From: Natronomonas salinimetallica
GTDB taxonomy: Archaea > Halobacteriota > Halobacteria > Halobacteriales > Haloarculaceae
NCBI RefSeq assembly: GCF_013839515.1
Contig: NZ_JACDNQ010000004.1
Span: 62,001-126,000, forward strand
DNA: 64,000 bases
Reading direction: 5' to 3'
In this document: positions 15,458 through 59,641 of the stretch, piece by piece
Layout: the number at the start of each line of letters is the position of its first letter
Numbering within the stretch: the first letter of the stretch is position 1
Translations under genes and position numbers: made by a program
The notes under the pieces: model-generated
Told to the model about the DNA's origin: nothing
The model's database searches: none
What the model saw: only the letters and a program-made list of their open reading frames with translations

Positions 15458-16807
15458 ATCGTCCTCGGTCAACTGTTCTATGACACGTAAGGGAATCTCA
15501 TCGGAGACGGTCACTGGGTCCTCGGGCACCATCGGCGGTTCGGCGGACTCGAATTCGAGCCCCGGCCCGAAGAGGCGCAACGCCGTGCTGATCGTCGACC
15601 AGTCGTCGTTCTCGGCGGCGTCGCGGATGCTCTGTGTCGGAGCCGAGAGGAGCTGTCCGACGAGTGCGTCTGCCATCGATTCGAGGATCTCCCGCTCCGC
15701 GTCGGAAACCCCCTCTTCGGATTCGCCCTCGAGCTTCGAGACGGCGGTCCGGAGCTCGCGGGATTTGATTCGTTCTGCACCCTCGTACATCGCGGCAATG
15801 ACCTGGTCCGCGCGTTTCCGTTTGTACTGGCCGAGGAGGCGTTCGAGTTCGTCATCGATCATCGCCTCGACGGTCTCGGCGGCCTCGCGCCGCTTCGTTT
15901 CGGTTTCGTCGGTCACCGCCTCGATGGCGTCGAGGTCGTACACGGAGACGTCGTCGACGGCGGCGGCTCCGGGTGCGACGTCGCGCGGCTGTGCGATGTC
16001 AACGATACACGTCTCGCCGGCCGTTTCGAGATCGGGAGCGCCGATGACGTGGTCCGGACTCCCGGTGGCCGAGACGACGACGTCGGACTCGGCTGCGGCG
16101 ACCGCGAGCGCGTCCAGGCCGACGGCGGACGTCTCCGTTTCGAGCTGACGGACGAGGTGTTCGGCGTGCGAAAGCGTCCGGTTGGCGACCACGACCCGAT
16201 CGACGGGGTCGTCGAGCGCCTTCGCGGCCAACGCCGCGATCTCGCCGGCACCGACCACGAGCGCGGTGACCCCGTCGAGGCCGTGTTCGTCCTCCGCAAA
16301 CCGGACCGCAGCGGAGCCGAGCGAGATCGCCCCCTCGTTGATCGCCGTCTCGCTCCGCGCCCGTTCGCCGACGTGGAGGGCTTTCAATACCGCGTCGTCG
16401 AGCGTCGGGCCGATCGATCCCACATCGCGGGCGTCCTCGTAGGCGTCACGGAACTGTCCGAGGATCTGGTCTTCGCCCAACACGAGCGATTCGAGCCCGC
16501 AGGCGACCGACATGAGATGTCTGAGGCTCTCCTCGTGGTCGAACTCGTCGACGGCATCGCGGTCGATGTCCCCCAGATACGTCGAGAGGGCCTCTCGGGC
16601 CGTTTCGGCGGTCTCACAGACGACGTACGCTTCGGCCCGGTTGCACGTCTGGAGGACGAACGCCTCCAGGACGTCGGGGATCCCGAGGAGCGACTCGAGG
16701 GCCGCCCGGCCGGAGTCGGCGGCGACGGTCTCGATCTGTTCGATGTCAGCGTTGCTGTGAGAGACGCTGACGCCGGCGACGACTTCGGTTTCTGTTCCCG
16801 TGGTCAC
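15455..16807 (-). CDS. hemA: Glutamyl-tRNA reductase
   Basis: A 450-residue NADPH enzyme that reduces glutamyl-tRNA to glutamate-1-semialdehyde, the committed step of archaeal tetrapyrrole synthesis. The catalytic cysteine is Cys55 in VLQTCNRAEAYV; LGEDQILGQFRDAY follows at about 112-125, the dinucleotide-binding VVGAGEIA near 175, and a helical dimerisation domain at the C-terminus. Length is normal. The start overlaps the upstream precorrin-2 dehydrogenase stop by four bases (ATGA). The TGA stop lies in the end of an inverted-repeat element. Confidence 0.96.
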   Translation of the reverse strand: MTTGTETEVVAGVSVSHSNADIEQIETVAADSGRAALESLLGIPDVLEAFVLQTCNRAEAYVVCETAETAREALSTYLGDIDRDAVDEFDHEESLRHLMSVACGLESLVLGEDQILGQFRDAYEDARDVGSIGPTLDDAVLKALHVGERARSETAINEGAISLGSAAVRFAEDEHGLDGVTALVVGAGEIAALAAKALDDPVDRVVVANRTLSHAEHLVRQLETETSAVGLDALAVAAAESDVVVSATGSPDHVIGAPDLETAGETCIVDIAQPRDVAPGAAAVDDVSVYDLDAIEAVTDETETKRREAAETVEAMIDDELERLLGQYKRKRADQVIAAMYEGAERIKSRELRTAVSKLEGESEEGVSDAEREILESMADALVGQLLSAPTQSIRDAAENDDWSTISTALRLFGPGLEFESAEPPMVPEDPVTVSDEIPLRVIEQLTEDD

Positions 16808-17451
16808 GGCTTCTCACCCAACGCCGAATCGACGACGGCGTCTACTGTTTGTCGGGGGTTGGAGTCACCCGTACCTAAATCCTTCCAAACCCTCGACGCC
16901 CGCACGACCTCCCGGACGGCACGCCTGCGGCGCGCCGGGTCGACCTCACGGGCTTTCAGCTCCTCGCGGACGTCGGCGGTTATCTCGGCGAGCTCGCCCG
17001 CGCCGTCGATCTCGCGTTCGATGCGTCGGCGGAGCTCCTTTGCGAGGGCCGGACTCGCTCCGCCGGTCGATATCGAGACGGCGACGTCACCCTCCCGGAC
17101 GGTCGCGGGCACGACGACGCCGCCCGGGCCGCGCTCCCCGGAGTGGTCCGCCCTGTTTATCAACACGCCGCGGCGGCGTGCCTCGCGCTCTGCGGCCTCG
17201 TTCACCGAGTCGGCGTCCGTCGCGGCGACGGCGAGTGCGGGATCCGTCCGCTCGAACCACGTCGCGATGCCATCGGCGTCGGGGGCGGCCCGGACGAGTT
17301 CCGCGCCCCCGTAGTCGACCTCGGGGAACTCGGGGCTGACGACGACGACGGTCGCCTCGCGGGCGAAACGCCGCGCTTTCCGGGCCCCGACGGGACCGCC
17401 GCCGAAGACGACTACCGTCTCGTCCGTGAAGTCGTGATACAATGGGATCAT
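16804..17451 (-). CDS. Precorrin-2 dehydrogenase / sirohydrochlorin ferrochelatase-like
   Basis: A 215-residue protein equivalent to the N-terminal part of CysG or yeast Met8p: it oxidises precorrin-2 with NAD+ to sirohydrochlorin and may insert iron. The Rossmann motif GGGPVGARKA is at 17-26. ISTGGASPALAKELRRRIE (about 130-150) is a family hallmark. ATG 17451 gives MIPLYHDF, a usual start for this family. It is two bases from the ahbAB stop and overlaps hemA, so siroheme formation is transcriptionally tied to both the first step and the decarboxylase. Confidence 0.92.
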   Translation of the reverse strand: MIPLYHDFTDETVVVFGGGPVGARKARRFAREATVVVVSPEFPEVDYGGAELVRAAPDADGIATWFERTDPALAVAATDADSVNEAAEREARRRGVLINRADHSGERGPGGVVVPATVREGDVAVSISTGGASPALAKELRRRIEREIDGAGELAEITADVREELKAREVDPARRRRAVREVVRASRVWKDLGTGDSNPRQTVDAVVDSALGEKP

Positions 17452-17452
17452 G

Positions 17453-18511
17453 CTATCGTGTGTTGGCGTCGGCGCGCTCGTCGAGTCGGATGCCCGTTTT
17501 CTTGAGGATCTCAGTCGAGAACAGCGAGTCCCACTCGTCCGCACCGACGTCCCAGTGGTCGTCCATCGTGGCTTTGACCTCCCGGATCCGTCGCTCGCTC
17601 TCGGCCTCGCTTCGGCCGTGCGTCATCGCAAAGAAGTTGTACGGCCACACTCCCTCGTGTCTCGGGCGTTCATAACAGTGAGTGACGAAATCGAGAGCCG
17701 CGACCTCGGGGCCCACGACGTCGAGTTTCTCGTCGGGGACGTCCCAGACGGTCATCCCGTTTTCCGTGTAGCCGAGCGCGTAATGGTTCGGGACGACGCC
17801 GACGCGTCGGATCTTCCCCTCCCCGTCGAACCGCTGTATCGTCCGGAGCACCCACTCGACATCGACCCCGAGCGTCCCGGCGACGTCGGCGTAGGGGGTC
17901 TCGGTGACCGGCAGCCCGCCCTGTATCTCGACGACGAGATCCCGTTCGTCGGGCGTTAATGCTCCGTCCGCGGCCGGATCGACGTCCGGACCGAGTCCCG
18001 AGAGATCGAGATCCCCCTCGGGGATCGGCCCGTCGAGCAGGAACTTCGCTTCGACGCGGAACTCCCGTCGTTTCGGGAGGTTGTACGTCTCCTGTCCGGT
18101 CTCGGCTTCGATCTCCCCGAGCACCCGGCCGACGGCGTCGGCGTCGGCGACCGAGACGACGAACCACATGTTCAAATGCGGGTGCTCGCGCCGGTAGTTG
18201 TGGGCGACCTCGCGGTGGGCGTTGACCAGATTTGCGACCTCCTCGAAGCGGTCCTCGGGGGCGTGCATCGCGACGAGCGTCGCGGCCCCGCCGATCTCGG
18301 CGGCGTTTATCAAGGCCCCAAACCGCGTCAGCACGCCCTCCTCGTCGAGCGACCGGATCCGATCGAGGAGCTCCGCTGCGGTCACGTCCACGCCACGGTC
18401 ACGGAGAGCCGCCGCAGCCGGCTCGAAGGGGCGTTCGACGACCGGAAAGCCGCCCTGATAGGCGTTGACGACGGCGCGGTCGATCCGGTCCAATCCGGCG
18501 GTTTCGCTCAT
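17453..18511 (-). CDS. ahbAB: Siroheme decarboxylase, fused AhbA-AhbB
   Basis: A 352-residue protein made of two Lrp/AsnC-like halves (about 1-165 and 185-340). Each has a winged-helix part (LDRIDRAVVNAYQGGFPV and DERDLVVEIQGGLPV) and a ligand-binding half with the siroheme-decarboxylase hallmarks: YRREHPHLNMWFVV in the first and HCYERPRHEGVWPYNFF in the second. AhbA/AhbB remove the C12 and C18 acetate carboxyls of siroheme to give didecarboxysiroheme in the archaeal heme route. In many organisms the two subunits are separate; here they are one chain. It is the first gene of the tetrapyrrole run. Confidence 0.92.
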   Translation of the reverse strand: MSETAGLDRIDRAVVNAYQGGFPVVERPFEPAAAALRDRGVDVTAAELLDRIRSLDEEGVLTRFGALINAAEIGGAATLVAMHAPEDRFEEVANLVNAHREVAHNYRREHPHLNMWFVVSVADADAVGRVLGEIEAETGQETYNLPKRREFRVEAKFLLDGPIPEGDLDLSGLGPDVDPAADGALTPDERDLVVEIQGGLPVTETPYADVAGTLGVDVEWVLRTIQRFDGEGKIRRVGVVPNHYALGYTENGMTVWDVPDEKLDVVGPEVAALDFVTHCYERPRHEGVWPYNFFAMTHGRSEAESERRIREVKATMDDHWDVGADEWDSLFSTEILKKTGIRLDERADANTR

Positions 18512-18614: not shown

Positions 18615-19598
18615 TCACACCACGCCGGCGAGGACGGTGTTGAACAGGACGCCGACAGCGATCCCGGTCACGACGACGGTCGTCGCGTAGATGGCGAGCA
18701 GCCGCCGTTCGAAGAGTTTGTTCAACAGAATCAGGTTCGGGATGCTGATTCCCGCACCGCCGATCACGAACGCGATGACCGTCCCGATCGGAATACCCTG
18801 TTCGGTCAGCGAGTGGGCGATCGGGAGCATTCCGCTGATGCTCACGTAGATCGGCGCGCCGGCGAGCGCCGCGAGCGGGGTCGCAAGCGGGTTCTCGGGG
18901 CCGGCGATCCGCTGGAGGAACGACGCGGGCACCGCCCCGTGGATCAGCGCGCCGATGGCGATGCCGACGGCGATGTACGGCAGCGTGTCCCGGAAAAAAG
19001 AGAGCGCGCCCCCGCCCGCGTCGGCGACCCGTTCGCGGTGTGTCTTCGACTGGGTCGTGTCGTCACAACCACAGGCGGCCGCCGCCCCGCCCTCGACCGC
19101 CGCCCCGCCGTCAGTGGTGATTTCGCGTCCGCCGGCGGTGATCCGGACGTCCTTGACGTACCCGTCGAGGTCGAGCGTGCCGATGACGAGCCCACCGACG
19201 ACCGCCGCGGTGAGCGCCGTGAGGACGTACGCGACCGTCACGTTCGCGCCGAAGAGCCCGAACAGCAAGAACACGGCGATCCAGTTGACGATCGGCGAGG
19301 CGAGCAGGAACGAAAACGACATCCCGATGGGTGCGCCAGCGCCCAGCAGCCCGGCGAGGACGGGAACCGTCGAACACGAACAAAACGGCGTCACAGCCCC
19401 GAGTCCGGCCGCGAGGACGTTCCCGCTTCCGTGGTCCCGCGTGCGCAACATCGCCTCGACGCGTTCGGGTGGAAGATACTCCTGGGCGAGGCCGACGAGG
19501 AAAGAGGCCCCGATGAAAAGCGGCGTGAGGACTATCGCCAGGTGCAGAAAGTAGTCCCACGAATCGAGCAACGCGGCCTCGTATCCCGGCGGAATCAC
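18615..19598 (-). CDS. Permease of the ArsP / DUF318 type
   Basis: A 327-residue membrane protein with about eight to ten helices in two halves separated by a hydrophilic loop (about 150-205) holding Cys-Gly-Cys. The conserved PFCSCSTVP (Cys73, Cys75) is the signature of the family, whose members export organoarsenicals or Cu/Zn, or act in metal homeostasis. The partner gene is an ArsR regulator that overlaps it by four bases, supporting a metal(loid)-induced efflux role. The transported ion cannot be read from sequence. Confidence 0.88.
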   Translation of the reverse strand: MIPPGYEAALLDSWDYFLHLAIVLTPLFIGASFLVGLAQEYLPPERVEAMLRTRDHGSGNVLAAGLGAVTPFCSCSTVPVLAGLLGAGAPIGMSFSFLLASPIVNWIAVFLLFGLFGANVTVAYVLTALTAAVVGGLVIGTLDLDGYVKDVRITAGGREITTDGGAAVEGGAAAACGCDDTTQSKTHRERVADAGGGALSFFRDTLPYIAVGIAIGALIHGAVPASFLQRIAGPENPLATPLAALAGAPIYVSISGMLPIAHSLTEQGIPIGTVIAFVIGGAGISIPNLILLNKLFERRLLAIYATTVVVTGIAVGVLFNTVLAGVV

Positions 19599-19993
19599 GG
19601 TGAATCACCCAGCGCCGCGGCCAGCGCGAGCAACTGGAGGCTCGCCGTATCCGCGATCCGGTAATACGTCCACTTTCCCTCCTTTCGGGTACTGACGATC
19701 CCGACCTCCCGCAGCCGCGAGAGGTGCGAGGCGACCGTCGACTGGGGGGCGTCGAGGACCGTCTCCAGCTCACAGGCACACAGCTCACCGTCCCGGAGCG
19801 CCTCGACGATCCGGAGACGCTTTTCGTTCGCCAACGCCTTGAACACCGACAGCTCCTCGGCGATAGCCGCCTCGTCGGTCCGACGGCTCGCCGGGAACGC
19901 CTCCTCGCAGTGGCCCTCGCCCCCGAGTCGCCGGAGTGTCCCGCTGGCCGACTCCGTGCGACCGTCAACGCCGTCCGCGGATGAATCGGACAT
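19595..19993 (-). CDS. ArsR/SmtB-family metal-responsive repressor
   Basis: A 132-residue protein. The winged helix spans about 45-125: FKALANEKRLRIVEAL, a recognition helix STVASHLSRLREVG, then the wing REGKWTYYRI. The helix before contains ELCACEL (Cys72, Cys74), the pair that binds As(III), Sb(III) or similar in ArsR proteins; a third Cys29 lies in the N-terminal extension. It should repress its own operon until metal binds. An inverted repeat at 20110-20129 in the promoter is the likely operator. Confidence 0.92.
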   Translation of the reverse strand: MSDSSADGVDGRTESASGTLRRLGGEGHCEEAFPASRRTDEAAIAEELSVFKALANEKRLRIVEALRDGELCACELETVLDAPQSTVASHLSRLREVGIVSTRKEGKWTYYRIADTASLQLLALAAALGDSP

Positions 19994-19999
19994 CCTCGA

Positions 20000-20107
20000 T
20001 CAGCCCTCGTCGGATTCGACGTCCTCGATCTGCACATCACAGCAACAGTCGCTTCCGTCGCCTTTTTCCTCGGTATCCGACCCGAACAGCCGTCTGAGCA
20101 GTGACAT
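20000..20107 (-). CDS. 35-aa Cys-rich miniprotein, first gene of the ars-like operon
   Basis: A short gene with ATG at 20107 and TGA at 20000-20002, encoding a basic amphipathic start (MSLLRRLFG), an acidic middle and a Cys-Cys-Cys triplet at residues 21-23. It lies directly under the operon promoter and operator, six bases before arsR. The contiguous cysteines suggest a small metal chaperone or scavenger. I do not know a named family. Confidence rests on its position, start, and sensible composition. Confidence 0.65.
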   Translation of the reverse strand: MSLLRRLFGSDTEEKGDGSDCCCDVQIEDVESDEG

Positions 20108-20109
20108 AC

Positions 20110-20129
20110 ATATCGATATATTTCGATAT
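20110..20129. promoter_or_regulatory. Operator/TATA inverted repeat of the ars-like operon
   Basis: ATATCGA and TCGATAT form a perfect 7 bp inverted repeat around a 6 bp TATATT spacer, only three bases above the first start codon and overlapping the AT-rich promoter. Position and symmetry fit an ArsR-family dimer site that would block transcription initiation. Confidence 0.6.
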
Positions 20130-20343
20130 CACTTGAACCTGTCGACGGTACCCACCGGCCGGGTTGACACGTGACCGCGGCGGGCTACGTACGAACGGTG
20201 GGTCCGTTCGATCCGGCCGCTCACACCGTCGACGTATCCGTCGAAAATGTCCGCATTCCCGTTCTGCGGTACGCGTCACATCAAGCCCCGAGGCACTCGC
20301 CCCACTCAACCTGTAGATCACTGCGAACGTCTATCCGACAACG

Positions 20344-21279: not shown

Positions 21280-23166
21280 ATGACCGATGAAATCATCTGG
21301 CGAATCGCGGGCGGTTCCGGCGACGGAATCGACTCGACGAGCCAGAATTTCGCGAAGGCCCTGATGCGATCGGGGCTGTACGTTTTCACACACAGACACT
21401 ATCCGTCCCGCATCCGCGGCGGCCACACCTACGTCGAGGTCAGAGCGTCGCCGGAGCCGGTGAAATCCAGAGGCGACGGCTATAACTGCCTCCTCGCGCT
21501 GGGTGACTCCTTCGCCAGAAACCCCCAGGAGGACGCCTACTACGGGGACGAGGAGATGAAGCCGATCCGCGAGAACCTCGACGAGCTCCGCGAAGGCGGC
21601 GTCATCGTCTACGACGAGGGACTCATCGACATCGACGAGATTCCGGACTTCGAGGAGCGCGTCGAGGAGAACGACTGGCACGTCTATCCCCTCGACCTCC
21701 GCGCCCGTGCCCGCGAGAAGGGCCGGGAGGTGATGCGCAACACCGCCGGCGTCGGCGCGACCGCCGCGCTCTTGGAGTACGATCTCGATCACATCCAGGA
21801 CCTGATGTCGGATGCGATGTCGGGGGACGTCCTGGAGACGAACCTCGAAATCCTCGAGGACGCCTACGAGGACGTCAAGGAGACGGAGTTTACCCACGAT
21901 CTCCGGATGCCGACGGGCGAACACGACGAGGATCAGGTGTTGCTCTCCGGGAGCAACGCCATCGCCTACGGCGCGATCGACGCGGGCTGTCGGTTCATCT
22001 CCGGATACCCGATGACGCCGTGGACGGAAGTGTTCAGCCTCATGAGCAACTACCTCCCGGAGCTCGGGGGGATCTCAGAGCAGGTCGAAGACGAGATCGC
22101 CGCGGCCGCGCTCGCGCTCGGCGCGTCACACGCCGGCGTGAAGTCGATGTCCGGTTCGTCCGGCGGCGGCTTCTCGCTCATGACCGAACCGCTCGGGCTG
22201 GCCGAGATGACCGAGACGCCGGTCGTCTTCGTCGAGGCGATGCGGGCAGGCCCCGCGACCGGGATGCCGACGAAGCCCGAACAAAGCGACCTCGAGCACG
22301 TCCTCTATGCGAGCCAGGGCGACTCGACCCGAGTGGTCTTCGCCCCCGGTAACGTCGAGGAGGCGTACGAACAGACGAGGGCCGCCTTCGAGATCGCCTA
22401 CGACTACCACGTACCGGCGATCGTCCTCTACGATCAGAAGATCGGAGGGGAGCTCAGAAACGTCGACGAGTCCTTCTTCGACCGCGAACCCGCACCGGAT
22501 CTCGGCGCGACGCTCACCGAGGAGGAACTCGCCGAAGCCGCCCACCACTCCTCCGGGAAGTTCAACCGGTACCAGCACGACCCCGGCGAGAAAGGCGTCT
22601 CGCCGCGGTCGATTCCGGGCCAGAAGGGCGGTCGCTTCCTCGCGGAGAGCAACGAGCACACCCCGCAGGGACACATCAACGAGGATCCCGACAACCGGAT
22701 CGCCCAGGTGAATCGACGGCTCGGCAAACACGACTCGATCCGTTCCGAGTTCAACGAGTCCGAAGACAGCCACCAGACCGTTCGCGGCCCCGAGGACGCG
22801 ACCTACGGAATCATGACGTTCGGCAGTCAACAGGGCACCGTCGAGGAGGCGGTCGACGAACTGAACGACGCCGGCTACAGCGTGAAGGCGATGGGTGTCT
22901 CCGATCTGATGCCGTTCCCCGAGTCGGAAGTGACCGAGTTCCTCGAGTCCGTCGAGGAGTGTCTCGTGGTCGAGATGACCGCGAGCGGTCAGTTCCGAGG
23001 ACTCGTCCAGCGGGAGTTGGGCCGCTTCGGCCCGAAGATGCACAGCCTTCTGAAGTACAACGGCAACCCGTTCGAGCCGCAGGAGGTCGTCGACGGGTTT
23101 AGATCGATCCTCGAAGGGGACGAGCCGGCGGCGACGACGCGATTCGTCCCCGCGGCAGGTGATTAA
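21280..23166 (+). CDS. porA: 2-oxoacid:ferredoxin oxidoreductase alpha subunit, probably pyruvate
   Basis: A 628-residue subunit with the gamma-type domain fused at the N-terminus (GGSGDGIDSTSQNFAKAL, residues 11-28) and the pyrimidine-binding alpha domain after about residue 205 (SGSNAIAYGAIDAG, FISGYPMTPWTE, and the EQVEDEIAAAALALGASHAG helix). With PorB it decarboxylates a 2-oxoacid to acyl-CoA, reducing ferredoxin. The fused architecture and length match haloarchaeal pyruvate rather than the shorter 2-oxoglutarate enzyme (about 585 residues), but substrate assignment by length is an inference. porB starts two bases after its stop. Confidence 0.9.
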   Translation: MTDEIIWRIAGGSGDGIDSTSQNFAKALMRSGLYVFTHRHYPSRIRGGHTYVEVRASPEPVKSRGDGYNCLLALGDSFARNPQEDAYYGDEEMKPIRENLDELREGGVIVYDEGLIDIDEIPDFEERVEENDWHVYPLDLRARAREKGREVMRNTAGVGATAALLEYDLDHIQDLMSDAMSGDVLETNLEILEDAYEDVKETEFTHDLRMPTGEHDEDQVLLSGSNAIAYGAIDAGCRFISGYPMTPWTEVFSLMSNYLPELGGISEQVEDEIAAAALALGASHAGVKSMSGSSGGGFSLMTEPLGLAEMTETPVVFVEAMRAGPATGMPTKPEQSDLEHVLYASQGDSTRVVFAPGNVEEAYEQTRAAFEIAYDYHVPAIVLYDQKIGGELRNVDESFFDREPAPDLGATLTEEELAEAAHHSSGKFNRYQHDPGEKGVSPRSIPGQKGGRFLAESNEHTPQGHINEDPDNRIAQVNRRLGKHDSIRSEFNESEDSHQTVRGPEDATYGIMTFGSQQGTVEEAVDELNDAGYSVKAMGVSDLMPFPESEVTEFLESVEECLVVEMTASGQFRGLVQRELGRFGPKMHSLLKYNGNPFEPQEVVDGFRSILEGDEPAATTRFVPAAGD

Positions 23167-23168
23167 TC

Positions 23169-24104
23169 ATGAGTGCATTCAACGCAATCGACGCGGATCG
23201 GGAGGTTGACCGAGAGGAGTACACGCCGGGCATCGAGCCACAGGCGACGTGGTGTCCCGGCTGTGGTGACTTCAGCGTTCTGAAGGCGCTGAAGGGCGCG
23301 ATGTCCGAACTCGGCAAGGATCCCGAGGAGATCCTGCTCGTGACCGGAATCGGCTGTTCGGGGAAGCTCAACAGCTACTTCGACAGCTACGGCTTCCATA
23401 CGCTACACGGCCGGGCGTTACCGGTCGCGCGGGCGGCGAAGCTCGCAAACCCCGAACTCGAGGTCGTCGCGGCGGGCGGCGACGGCGACGGCTACGGGAT
23501 CGGCGGCAACCACTTCACCCATACGGCCCGCGAGAACCACGACATCACGTACATCGTGTTCAACAACGAGATCTTCGGGCTCACGAAGGGCCAGACGTCG
23601 CCGACGAGCCCCAAGGGTCACAAATCGAAGACCCAACCGCACGGCTCCGCGAAGGACCCCGTCCGACCGCTGTCGATGTCGCTCACCGCTGGGTCCTCCT
23701 ACGTCGCTCGGACCGCCGCGGTCAACCCCAACCAGGCCCAGGAGATCCTCGTCGAGGCCATCCAACACGACGGGTTCTCACACATCGATTTCCTCACGCA
23801 GTGTCCGACCTGGAACAAGGACGCCAAACAGTACGTCCCCTACATCGACATCCAGCAAAACGAGGACTACGAGTTCGACATCTCGAACCGTCAAGAAGCC
23901 GCGGAGGTAATCTACGATACCGAGTTGGCACTCCACGACGGCGAGGTGCTGACCGGTCGGTACTACCAACAGGAGGGCCGTCTCTCCTACACCCAGGAGA
24001 AACAGGAGATCGGCGAGATGCCGGAGGAGCCGCTCGCCGAACGGTACCACGACGACGATTACGAGTGGGAACGCTGCTACGATATGCTGGACGCCCACAG
24101 GTAA
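23169..24104 (+). CDS. porB: 2-oxoacid:ferredoxin oxidoreductase beta subunit, probably pyruvate
   Basis: A 311-residue thiamine-diphosphate subunit. The TPP/Mg motif is GGDGDGYGIGGNHFTHT (about 96-112) with NNEIFGLTKGQ after about 27 residues; the N-terminal TWCPGCGDFSVLKAL is the family's conserved Cys pair region. It lacks 4Fe-4S ferredoxin domains, as in other haloarchaeal enzymes, which carry a single cluster. It forms a complex with PorA. Its stop is followed by three 24 bp repeats ending in a T-run. Confidence 0.93.
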   Translation: MSAFNAIDADREVDREEYTPGIEPQATWCPGCGDFSVLKALKGAMSELGKDPEEILLVTGIGCSGKLNSYFDSYGFHTLHGRALPVARAAKLANPELEVVAAGGDGDGYGIGGNHFTHTARENHDITYIVFNNEIFGLTKGQTSPTSPKGHKSKTQPHGSAKDPVRPLSMSLTAGSSYVARTAAVNPNQAQEILVEAIQHDGFSHIDFLTQCPTWNKDAKQYVPYIDIQQNEDYEFDISNRQEAAEVIYDTELALHDGEVLTGRYYQQEGRLSYTQEKQEIGEMPEEPLAERYHDDDYEWERCYDMLDAHR

Positions 24105-58960: not shown

Positions 58961-59641
58961 ATGAGCGTTCGCGTGGAGTTCGACGAGTGGGCGGCAGACG
59001 GCCGCGACCGTGGGATGGAACGGCGACACTGGCACACGGCGAAACACGCCCTGGGACGGATGCCCGTCGAGGCGGGCGAGACCGTCCTCGATTTGGGCTG
59101 TGGCAGCGGCTACGCCGGCCGGGCGCTCCGGGAGGCCAAGGACGCCGGCCGCGTCTACGGCCTCGACGGTGCCCCGGAGATGACGAGAAACGCCCGGAGC
59201 TACACCGACGACCCGGCGGTAGGCTACGTCGTCGGCGACTTCGACTCGCTGGCGTTTTCGGACGACAGCGTCGACCACGCGTTCTCGATGGAGGCGTTCT
59301 ACTACGCGCCCGACCCCCACAACACGCTCAGAGAGCTCAAACGCGTCCTCCGTCCCGGCGGCACGTTCTACTGCGCGGTGAACTACTTCGAGGAGAACGT
59401 TCACACCCACGGCTGGCAGGAGAACATCTCGATCGAGATGACGCGGTGGGATTACGGGGAGTACCGCGAGGCGTTCCGCGAGGCCGGCTTCCACGTCGCC
59501 GAACAGGACACGATCCCCGACCGCGAGACGGAGATCCCGCCCGAAAGCGAGTTCCCGACCGACGAGTGGGAGCGCCGAGCGGACATGCTCGAGCGCTACC
59601 GCGAGTACGGGACGCTTTTGACCGTCGGGGTCGTCCCCTGA
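58961..59641 (+). CDS. Class I SAM-dependent methyltransferase
   Basis: A 226-residue protein with motif I VLDLGCGSGYAGRAL (about 42-56), motif post-I YGLDGAPEM, motif II VVGDFDSLAFSDDSVDHAFS, and PGGTFYCAVNYFEEN (near 132-146). Layout resembles UbiE/Coq5-like or arsenite-type methyltransferases, but substrate residues are not diagnostic. The N-terminus starts with VRVEFDEWAADGRD. It is convergent with folA. Confidence 0.88.
   Translation: MSVRVEFDEWAADGRDRGMERRHWHTAKHALGRMPVEAGETVLDLGCGSGYAGRALREAKDAGRVYGLDGAPEMTRNARSYTDDPAVGYVVGDFDSLAFSDDSVDHAFSMEAFYYAPDPHNTLRELKRVLRPGGTFYCAVNYFEENVHTHGWQENISIEMTRWDYGEYREAFREAGFHVAEQDTIPDRETEIPPESEFPTDEWERRADMLERYREYGTLLTVGVVP

Follow-up and report, generated by a model that had tools for sequence, protein, structure and literature searches.

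A conserved 35-residue Cys-pair peptide encoded ahead of arsR-arsP in haloarchaea, and its probable partnership with the ArsP permease

The stretch of DNA analysed here (the window, 64,000 nucleotides from Natronomonas salinimetallica) carries on its minus strand an operon in which a gene for a 35-residue peptide (MSLLRRLFGSDTEEKGDGSDCCCDVQIEDVESDEG) is followed by a regulator gene and a permease gene. The features of the locus are:

18615 to 19598, minus strand: arsP, a permease gene of the ArsP_1 family with a GTG start (PF03773)
19065 to 19073, minus strand: Cys176-Gly-Cys178 in the central loop of ArsP (from the loop sequence)
19595 to 19993, minus strand: arsR, a regulator gene of the ArsR/SmtB family with a CxC motif, Cys72 and Cys74 (NF033788, HTH_5, Cys positions)
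20000 to 20107, minus strand: the 35-aa CC peptide gene, first in the operon (ORF with ATG start; conservation; purifying selection)
20039 to 20044, minus strand: codons of the invariant Cys pair, residues 22 and 23 (columns C22, C23 and I27 invariant in 11 archaeal and bacterial peptides)
20110 to 20129, minus strand: operator-like inverted repeat ATATCGA-AATATA-TCGATAT, the presumed ArsR site (repeat, and dyad in relatives)
20132 to 20137, minus strand: TATA-like element TTCAAG (relatives share the consensus TTAAG), some 27 nt ahead of the ATG (placed by the conserved TtAAG of 38 S1 upstream regions)

The peptide stop codon lies 6 nt from the start of arsR, and the arsR and arsP reading frames overlap by 4 nt. 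The product of the middle gene scores 93.7 bits against NF033788 (cut-off 55) and carries the motif Cys72-Ala-Cys74, which places it in the ArsR/SmtB family. The downstream permease belongs to the ArsP_1 family, scoring 194.7 bits against PF03773 (cut-off 32.3) over profile positions 9-293 of 294, and it falls below the NCBIfam cut-offs for the SO_0444 Cu/Zn exporter (112 vs 300) and for SaoE (104.5 vs 325). Two other PF03773 matches occur in the same genome (G000:C28:87356-88369 and G000:C23:193298-194187), the latter being split in two pieces, one with an internal stop. Around the operon (16804-18511, minus strand; 21280-24104, plus strand), tetrapyrrole-type genes were recognised by eye on one side and 2-oxoacid:ferredoxin oxidoreductase-type genes on the other.

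The first-pass annotation of this DNA had placed a perfect inverted repeat before the peptide gene. This is accurate for the 7-bp arms, whereas in a reading as two 10-bp arms 9 of 10 positions pair. The repeat ends 2 bases before the peptide ATG, between the TATA-like element and the start codon. Allowing one mismatch at most, TATCGA-N6-TCGATA occurs once in the window, against a mean of 0.19 in shuffled sequences (17 of 100 shuffles had at least one), and the exact form is found at two places in the 2.78-Mb genome. By itself the repeat is therefore just modestly unusual; more weight falls on the fact that relatives conserve it. Across 38 upstream regions of the S1 subfamily (see below) a dyad at -21 to -4 gives a mean of 4.29 of 6 complementary pairs, compared with 2.89 at the next best offset tried, and the consensus beside the start codon reads ...CAAAa.A.TtAAGTCAaATCGagtTaTATCGATaTGT-ATG. 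The repeat is often imperfect in single sequences, with both 6-bp arms exact in few of 53 ORF upstreams. Leaderless mRNAs are a familiar feature of haloarchaea, and the TATA-like element implies a predicted transcript start at or near the peptide ATG.

Loci with arsP were gathered from a sample of 292 haloarchaeal genomes, from named genome contigs and from plasmids, giving 73 haloarchaeal loci with 60 distinct arsP starts. An equivalent peptide ORF precedes arsR-arsP in 57 of these 60, as judged by a motif filter and, for L004, L014/L043 and L086, by inspection. The reading frame is thus kept in relatives, which bears out the first-pass annotation in its proposal of a small, easily missed gene heading an ArsR-permease operon. 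The three loci without the peptide are L037/L088, which has a different ArsR (37% identical), L073, where arsP is matched in part and arsR was not found next to it, and L074, which lies at a contig edge. It is also absent from three genomes that were fetched for giving no profile match (G129, G039 and G171; L140-L142). One copy among the 57 (L014/L043, the latter from Halorubrum tebenquichense) has an in-frame stop right after CCDM, which could be a sequencing error or a natural truncation in which both Cys survive.

The motif filter picked out 65 loci, whose 53 unique ORFs form two subfamilies. S1 (38 ORFs) comprises peptides of about 33-45 aa with the typical form [LI]xRL[FL]G...(C)CC-x3-IEE, while those of S2 (15 ORFs) are 47-49 aa long, apart from one of 83 aa (L038), and typically read RIWNRL...CC-x3-[IV]EE...CC[EK]. 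The 83-aa member (G282; ORF at 839-1090 of the oriented locus) has three CC-x3-[IT]E-type units and a terminal CC. The peptide stop is separated from the arsR start by 6 nt in 23 of the 53 unique ORFs and by 20-22 nt in 15. What is conserved is the Cys pair in the setting CC-x3-I, usually CC-x3-IEE. A Cys triplet, which had been singled out as the key feature of the window peptide, does not hold up, as residue 21, the third Cys, is not kept and many relatives have CC only. The IEE segment is as well conserved as the Cys residues, and the N-terminal hydrophobic stretch is also conserved.

The pattern of substitution is that of a protein under purifying selection. Pairwise dN/dS has a median of 0.45 in S1 (252 pairs with pS 0.05-0.6; 97% below 1) and of 0.28 in S2 (35 pairs; 100% below 1), the pairs not being independent of one another and the starts of L024, L025, L028 and L046 having been trimmed too short in this set. 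Both TGC and TGT are used at both conserved Cys positions.

None of the peptides tested matched a Pfam-A or NCBIfam model over its cut-off, and membership of a known family in these two collections is rejected for them. The models for HcsL/HcsS (halo-CC-star) and SaoC gave no match with the window peptide, four haloarchaeal relatives, or the G312, Cupriavidus and staphylococcal peptides described below, and the ArsD models of Pfam and NCBIfam left the peptide unmatched. No metallothionein or other Cys-rich Pfam family was matched over cut-off; the Cupriavidus repeat protein reached E 0.2 with CCG, below the cut-off. A search of solved structures returned one 10-residue match (E 0.63), and AlphaFold2 modelled the window peptide with a helix at residues 4-7 alone (mean pLDDT 63.3) and no confident fold. 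The first-pass annotation had called the peptide unrecognised. This is right for the S2 plasmid copies, 7 of 7 of which (at E<1e-5) have no annotated feature in a gene table that is incomplete, but the two S1 relatives matched on haloarchaeal plasmids are both annotated as 'hypothetical protein', as are 27 of 28 copies on staphylococcal-type plasmids. Among the open-access papers listed, no title or abstract opening was recognised as dealing with a small ArsP-associated peptide of this kind, and the matches listed for SaoC, SaoE and HcsL concerned other meanings of these names.

The association with ArsP extends to whole genomes. Profiles of S1 (A1) and S2 (A2), built from arsP-adjacent loci, were run genome-wide over the class sample of 292 haloarchaeal genomes, of which 43 have a close ArsP (E<=1e-60). 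Matches at E<=1e-4, a threshold picked after the lists had been viewed, occur in 39 of these 43 genomes (23 through the S1 profile and 16 through the S2 profile) and in 0 of the 249 others (Fisher p 2.5e-44, with genomes counted as independent and shared ancestry ignored). Weaker matches appear in many genomes, mostly within long unrelated frames. The four genomes with a close ArsP and no peptide match are G039, G129, G171 and G293. Among the matches, that of G201 is interrupted by a stop codon and that of G048 is a degenerate copy (CGC), and in two extra copies (G051:C24 and G044:C20) the peptide gene and arsR lie near a contig end with arsP beyond view.

Similar peptides are found outside the haloarchaea. 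In G312, an archaeon from the same phylum, the gene order is PadR - ArsP - 39-aa peptide (MVKKLLNRLFGKKEDDKKCCDFEIVSEPEDESENNEENF; E 1.8e-5 with A1), PadR being assigned from sequence likeness to an annotated Cupriavidus gene. Two further genomes, G894 (E 3.7e-4) and G869 (E 0.006), encode proteins of about 96-100 aa that open with a similar segment, ..DKIFG..SSSCCCGTRIVG.., followed by an ArsR-like gene and ArsP. These three are the convincing cases among the 149 genomes of their class, in which four matches reached E<=0.05. ArsM (E 1.2e-101) adjoins the G869 locus, and next to the ArsM gene (L176, 1003-1278, minus strand) lies a gene for an AbrB-like protein that scores 123.8 bits against the NCBIfam model HgcC (HgcAB-associated; cut-off 70).

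Among bacteria, PadR and ArsP are followed on a plasmid of Cupriavidus basilensis by an 89-aa protein with the units DCCAVRIEEV, ACCAPRIEKV and ACCAVRIEEV, and MarR and ArsP on a Priestia plasmid by a 41-aa peptide. On staphylococcal-type plasmids ArsR and ArsP are followed by a peptide of 42-44 aa in 6 of the 6 opened from 28 matched records; it contains CCSVEIEE or CCSVKIEE, plus CC at or near the C-terminal end, and divergent arsDA is present in 4 of the 6. Over 11 archaeal and bacterial peptides C22, C23 and I27 (window numbering) are invariant. The peptide gene lies downstream of the permease in G312 and on the Cupriavidus, Priestia and staphylococcal-type plasmids. Going beyond the first-pass annotation, the family appears to reach bacteria. 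Homology across the two domains would rest on a short motif and a shared position, with convergence as the alternative. The CC-x3-I module is not general in bacteria: a search of 349 Pseudomonadota genomes gave one weak match with no ArsP match in that locus, and a motif scan found no free CC-x3-I peptide in the Ruegeria, Vibrio, Photobacterium, Citrobacter or Subdoligranulum loci. ArsP relatives were not found on viral contigs with three queries.

The central loop of ArsP may itself carry Cys residues. Counting identical loops once and excluding partial genes, haloarchaeal loops have at least two, but there are none in L033, L068, L145 or the distant L089. The bacterial ArsPs that are accompanied by a separate peptide have no loop Cys in 6 of 6 cases (L083, L164, L166, L170, L171 and L173). 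Two plasmid ArsPs that lack a free peptide are rich in them, that of Citrobacter (L165, 2489-3622) with 10 loop Cys and four CC, and that of Photobacterium (L169, 1923-3071) with eight and two CC. Such CC repeats in two peptide-less permeases are a hint, from sequence, towards a hand-off between peptide and ArsP. The pattern is not clean, and a simple rule of peptide or loop does not fit the other loci. Loop Cys number two in Vibrio (L168), one in Ruegeria (L163) and none in the Clostridial L084 and L085, where a free CC-x3-I peptide is missing as well, and in haloarchaea the counts without peptide (six in L142, three in L141, two each in L143 and L140) overlap with those in its presence (0-4). 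In Monoglobus (L085) ArsP is followed by a gene with a thioredoxin-family annotation, whose product begins MALFGKKRKKEETASCCGNC; this thioredoxin-like protein with a CC-containing N-terminus is perhaps a fused form.

The arsenic setting of these operons varies. Within flanks of at most 3-4 kb around 41 haloarchaeal loci, the arsenic genes identified at E<=1e-10 were arsD (10), arsA (9), ACR3 (9) and arsM-like genes (5). ArsD, ArsA and ACR3 were not found by tblastn of the window, where the sole trace was a partial methyltransferase match at 59075-59362. According to two published accounts, the C. jejuni ArsP does not export arsenite but does export MAs(III) and trivalent roxarsone, and Cys12, Cys13 and Cys18 of ArsD hand As(III) to ArsA (PMC6205960; PMC12607644). 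Passages on ArsP also regard some of the trivalent organoarsenicals that it exports as microbial antibiotics; they refer to a proposed coupling of ArsP to ArsA and mention no small peptide partner.

The constant partner of the peptide is ArsP, while the regulator (ArsR, PadR or MarR) and the gene order vary; a trans-acting peptide that serves ArsP is therefore favoured, and that it is a dedicated partner of the permease seems probable. A role as a partner of ArsR is disfavoured, the regulator being PadR or MarR elsewhere. Our main reading, with a probability of roughly 0.55, is that the peptide would carry or buffer a soft metalloid through its thiols and act with ArsP by analogy with ArsD and ArsA. 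The sequence comparisons show the gene, its conservation, its promoter layout, a nearly exclusive association with ArsP among haloarchaea and comparable ArsP-adjacent peptides in further archaea and in bacteria; metalloid binding, hand-off, substrate, membrane contact and regulation are steps that we infer. ArsR sitting on the repeat, between TATA-like element and start codon, would silence the operon, and release of ArsR by its ligand would allow a transcript from the peptide gene onwards to yield peptide, ArsR and ArsP together. The peptide would be an ArsR-controlled, cytoplasmic thiol peptide working with the permease. A vicinal Cys pair is a natural ligand for methylated As(III), and the pair in the peptide might bind a soft, thiophilic substrate, for which methylarsenite or another trivalent organoarsenical, held by two thiols, is the most plausible candidate; this choice of substrate is tentative, at somewhat short of even odds. 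The short N-terminal amphipathic stretch may bring the peptide to the membrane or to the permease, where the buffered substrate could be handed to ArsP. The idea of metal capture before export, already put forward in the first-pass annotation, agrees with the linkage to ArsP seen in both domains and is a plausible one. A carrier is also favoured by the arsenic genes near part of the loci, the ArsM beside the G869 locus and the repeated CC units of Cupriavidus and L038. Against it stand the four genomes with a close ArsP and no peptide, the window in which ArsD, ArsA and ACR3 were not found, the uneven loop-Cys pattern, the short motif and position that underlie cross-domain homology, and the low-confidence structure model.

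That the ORF is a real gene is almost certain. Its 35 codons and the missing annotation in part of its relatives would suit a spurious ORF conserved through overlap with promoter or RNA signals, but dN/dS lies below 1 in nearly all S1 pairs and in every S2 pair, length varies around a constant CC-x3-I, and similar bacterial peptides are encoded at another gene position. Because of this conservation, the selection and the genome-wide linkage to ArsP, a chance ORF is rejected, and we give that explanation a negligible probability. The place of the gene, first after the promoter and with the 6-nt gap to arsR in many loci that makes translational coupling likely, recalls a regulatory leader peptide, translation of or stalling on which would control arsR-arsP expression. 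Such a role is disfavoured because the bacterial copies, if they are of the same family, follow the permease, as does that of G312; moreover, amino acids are kept across synonymous change and IEE is conserved like the Cys residues. We regard it as very improbable.

Two further explanations accept a functional peptide. A cytosolic, metallothionein-like thiol buffer, co-induced with the exporter and making no specific contact with ArsP, would account for a small, acidic, Cys-containing peptide co-transcribed with the regulator, for the CC units repeated in some members (Cupriavidus, L038) and for the lack of a confident fold. A single Cys pair offers little capacity, however, the linkage is specific to ArsP (no match at E<=1e-4 in the 249 genomes without a close ArsP), and two ArsPs have CC repeats in their own loop, all of which makes an independent buffer unlikely. 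Rather improbable in our estimate is an accessory subunit or modulator of ArsP that affects its stability, gating or thiol redox state and carries no substrate. Its attractions are the conserved N-terminal hydrophobic stretch, the constancy of the permease as partner and the thioredoxin-like protein after ArsP in Monoglobus, but conservation is highest at the Cys pair, which is suited to metalloid binding.

With the peptide gene, a resistance operon of known type gains a new component that has not been catalogued. A wider and more speculative proposal, for which we would claim rather less than an even chance, is that CC-x3-I thiol carrier modules of archaea and bacteria constitute an uncatalogued family, a dedicated soluble partner of ArsP and an organoarsenical counterpart of ArsD. 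It would comprise free peptides of about 33-50 aa, tandem CC repeats, proteins in which the module is joined to a C-terminal domain (G869, G894) and modules within the ArsP loop (Citrobacter, Photobacterium), and the thioredoxin-like protein of Monoglobus perhaps has one as an N-terminal extension; delivery could be in trans or in cis. A conserved partner of this size, 35-50 aa and with no family model among those searched, is easily missed. If the proposal is true, some archaeal and bacterial arsenic-resistance operons hold a further component that has gone unscored.

Several known systems invite comparison. SaoC is a Cys-Cys protein which, going by NCBIfam names, is said to accompany the ArsP-like permease SaoE. 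The window differs from that pairing, its permease lying below the SaoE cut-off and the peptides tested having no SaoC match. HcsL and HcsS (halo-CC-star) are likewise uncharacterised haloarchaeal CC proteins beside arsDA, and they end in CC, as the S2 and staphylococcal peptides do at or near the C-terminus. They are longer (HcsL 138 aa, HcsS 74 aa), whereas the window peptide has an internal CC and matches neither model. On the plasmid loci L078 and L079, at about 5.0-9.0 kb, arsDA followed by hcsL and hcsS shares a neighbourhood with a peptide-arsR-arsP operon. The window permease is in the same family, ArsP_1 (PF03773), as the methylarsenite efflux permease ArsP. ArsD differs from the peptide in size and motif, its relatives being 109 aa long with an AMCCSTGVCG start (L078), compared with 35 aa and CC-x3-IEE. 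Both are small thiol proteins of arsenic operons with a vicinal Cys pair (the invariant C22-C23 in the peptide), which raises the question of whether a thiol carrier supplies ArsP with substrate in the way that ArsD supplies ArsA.
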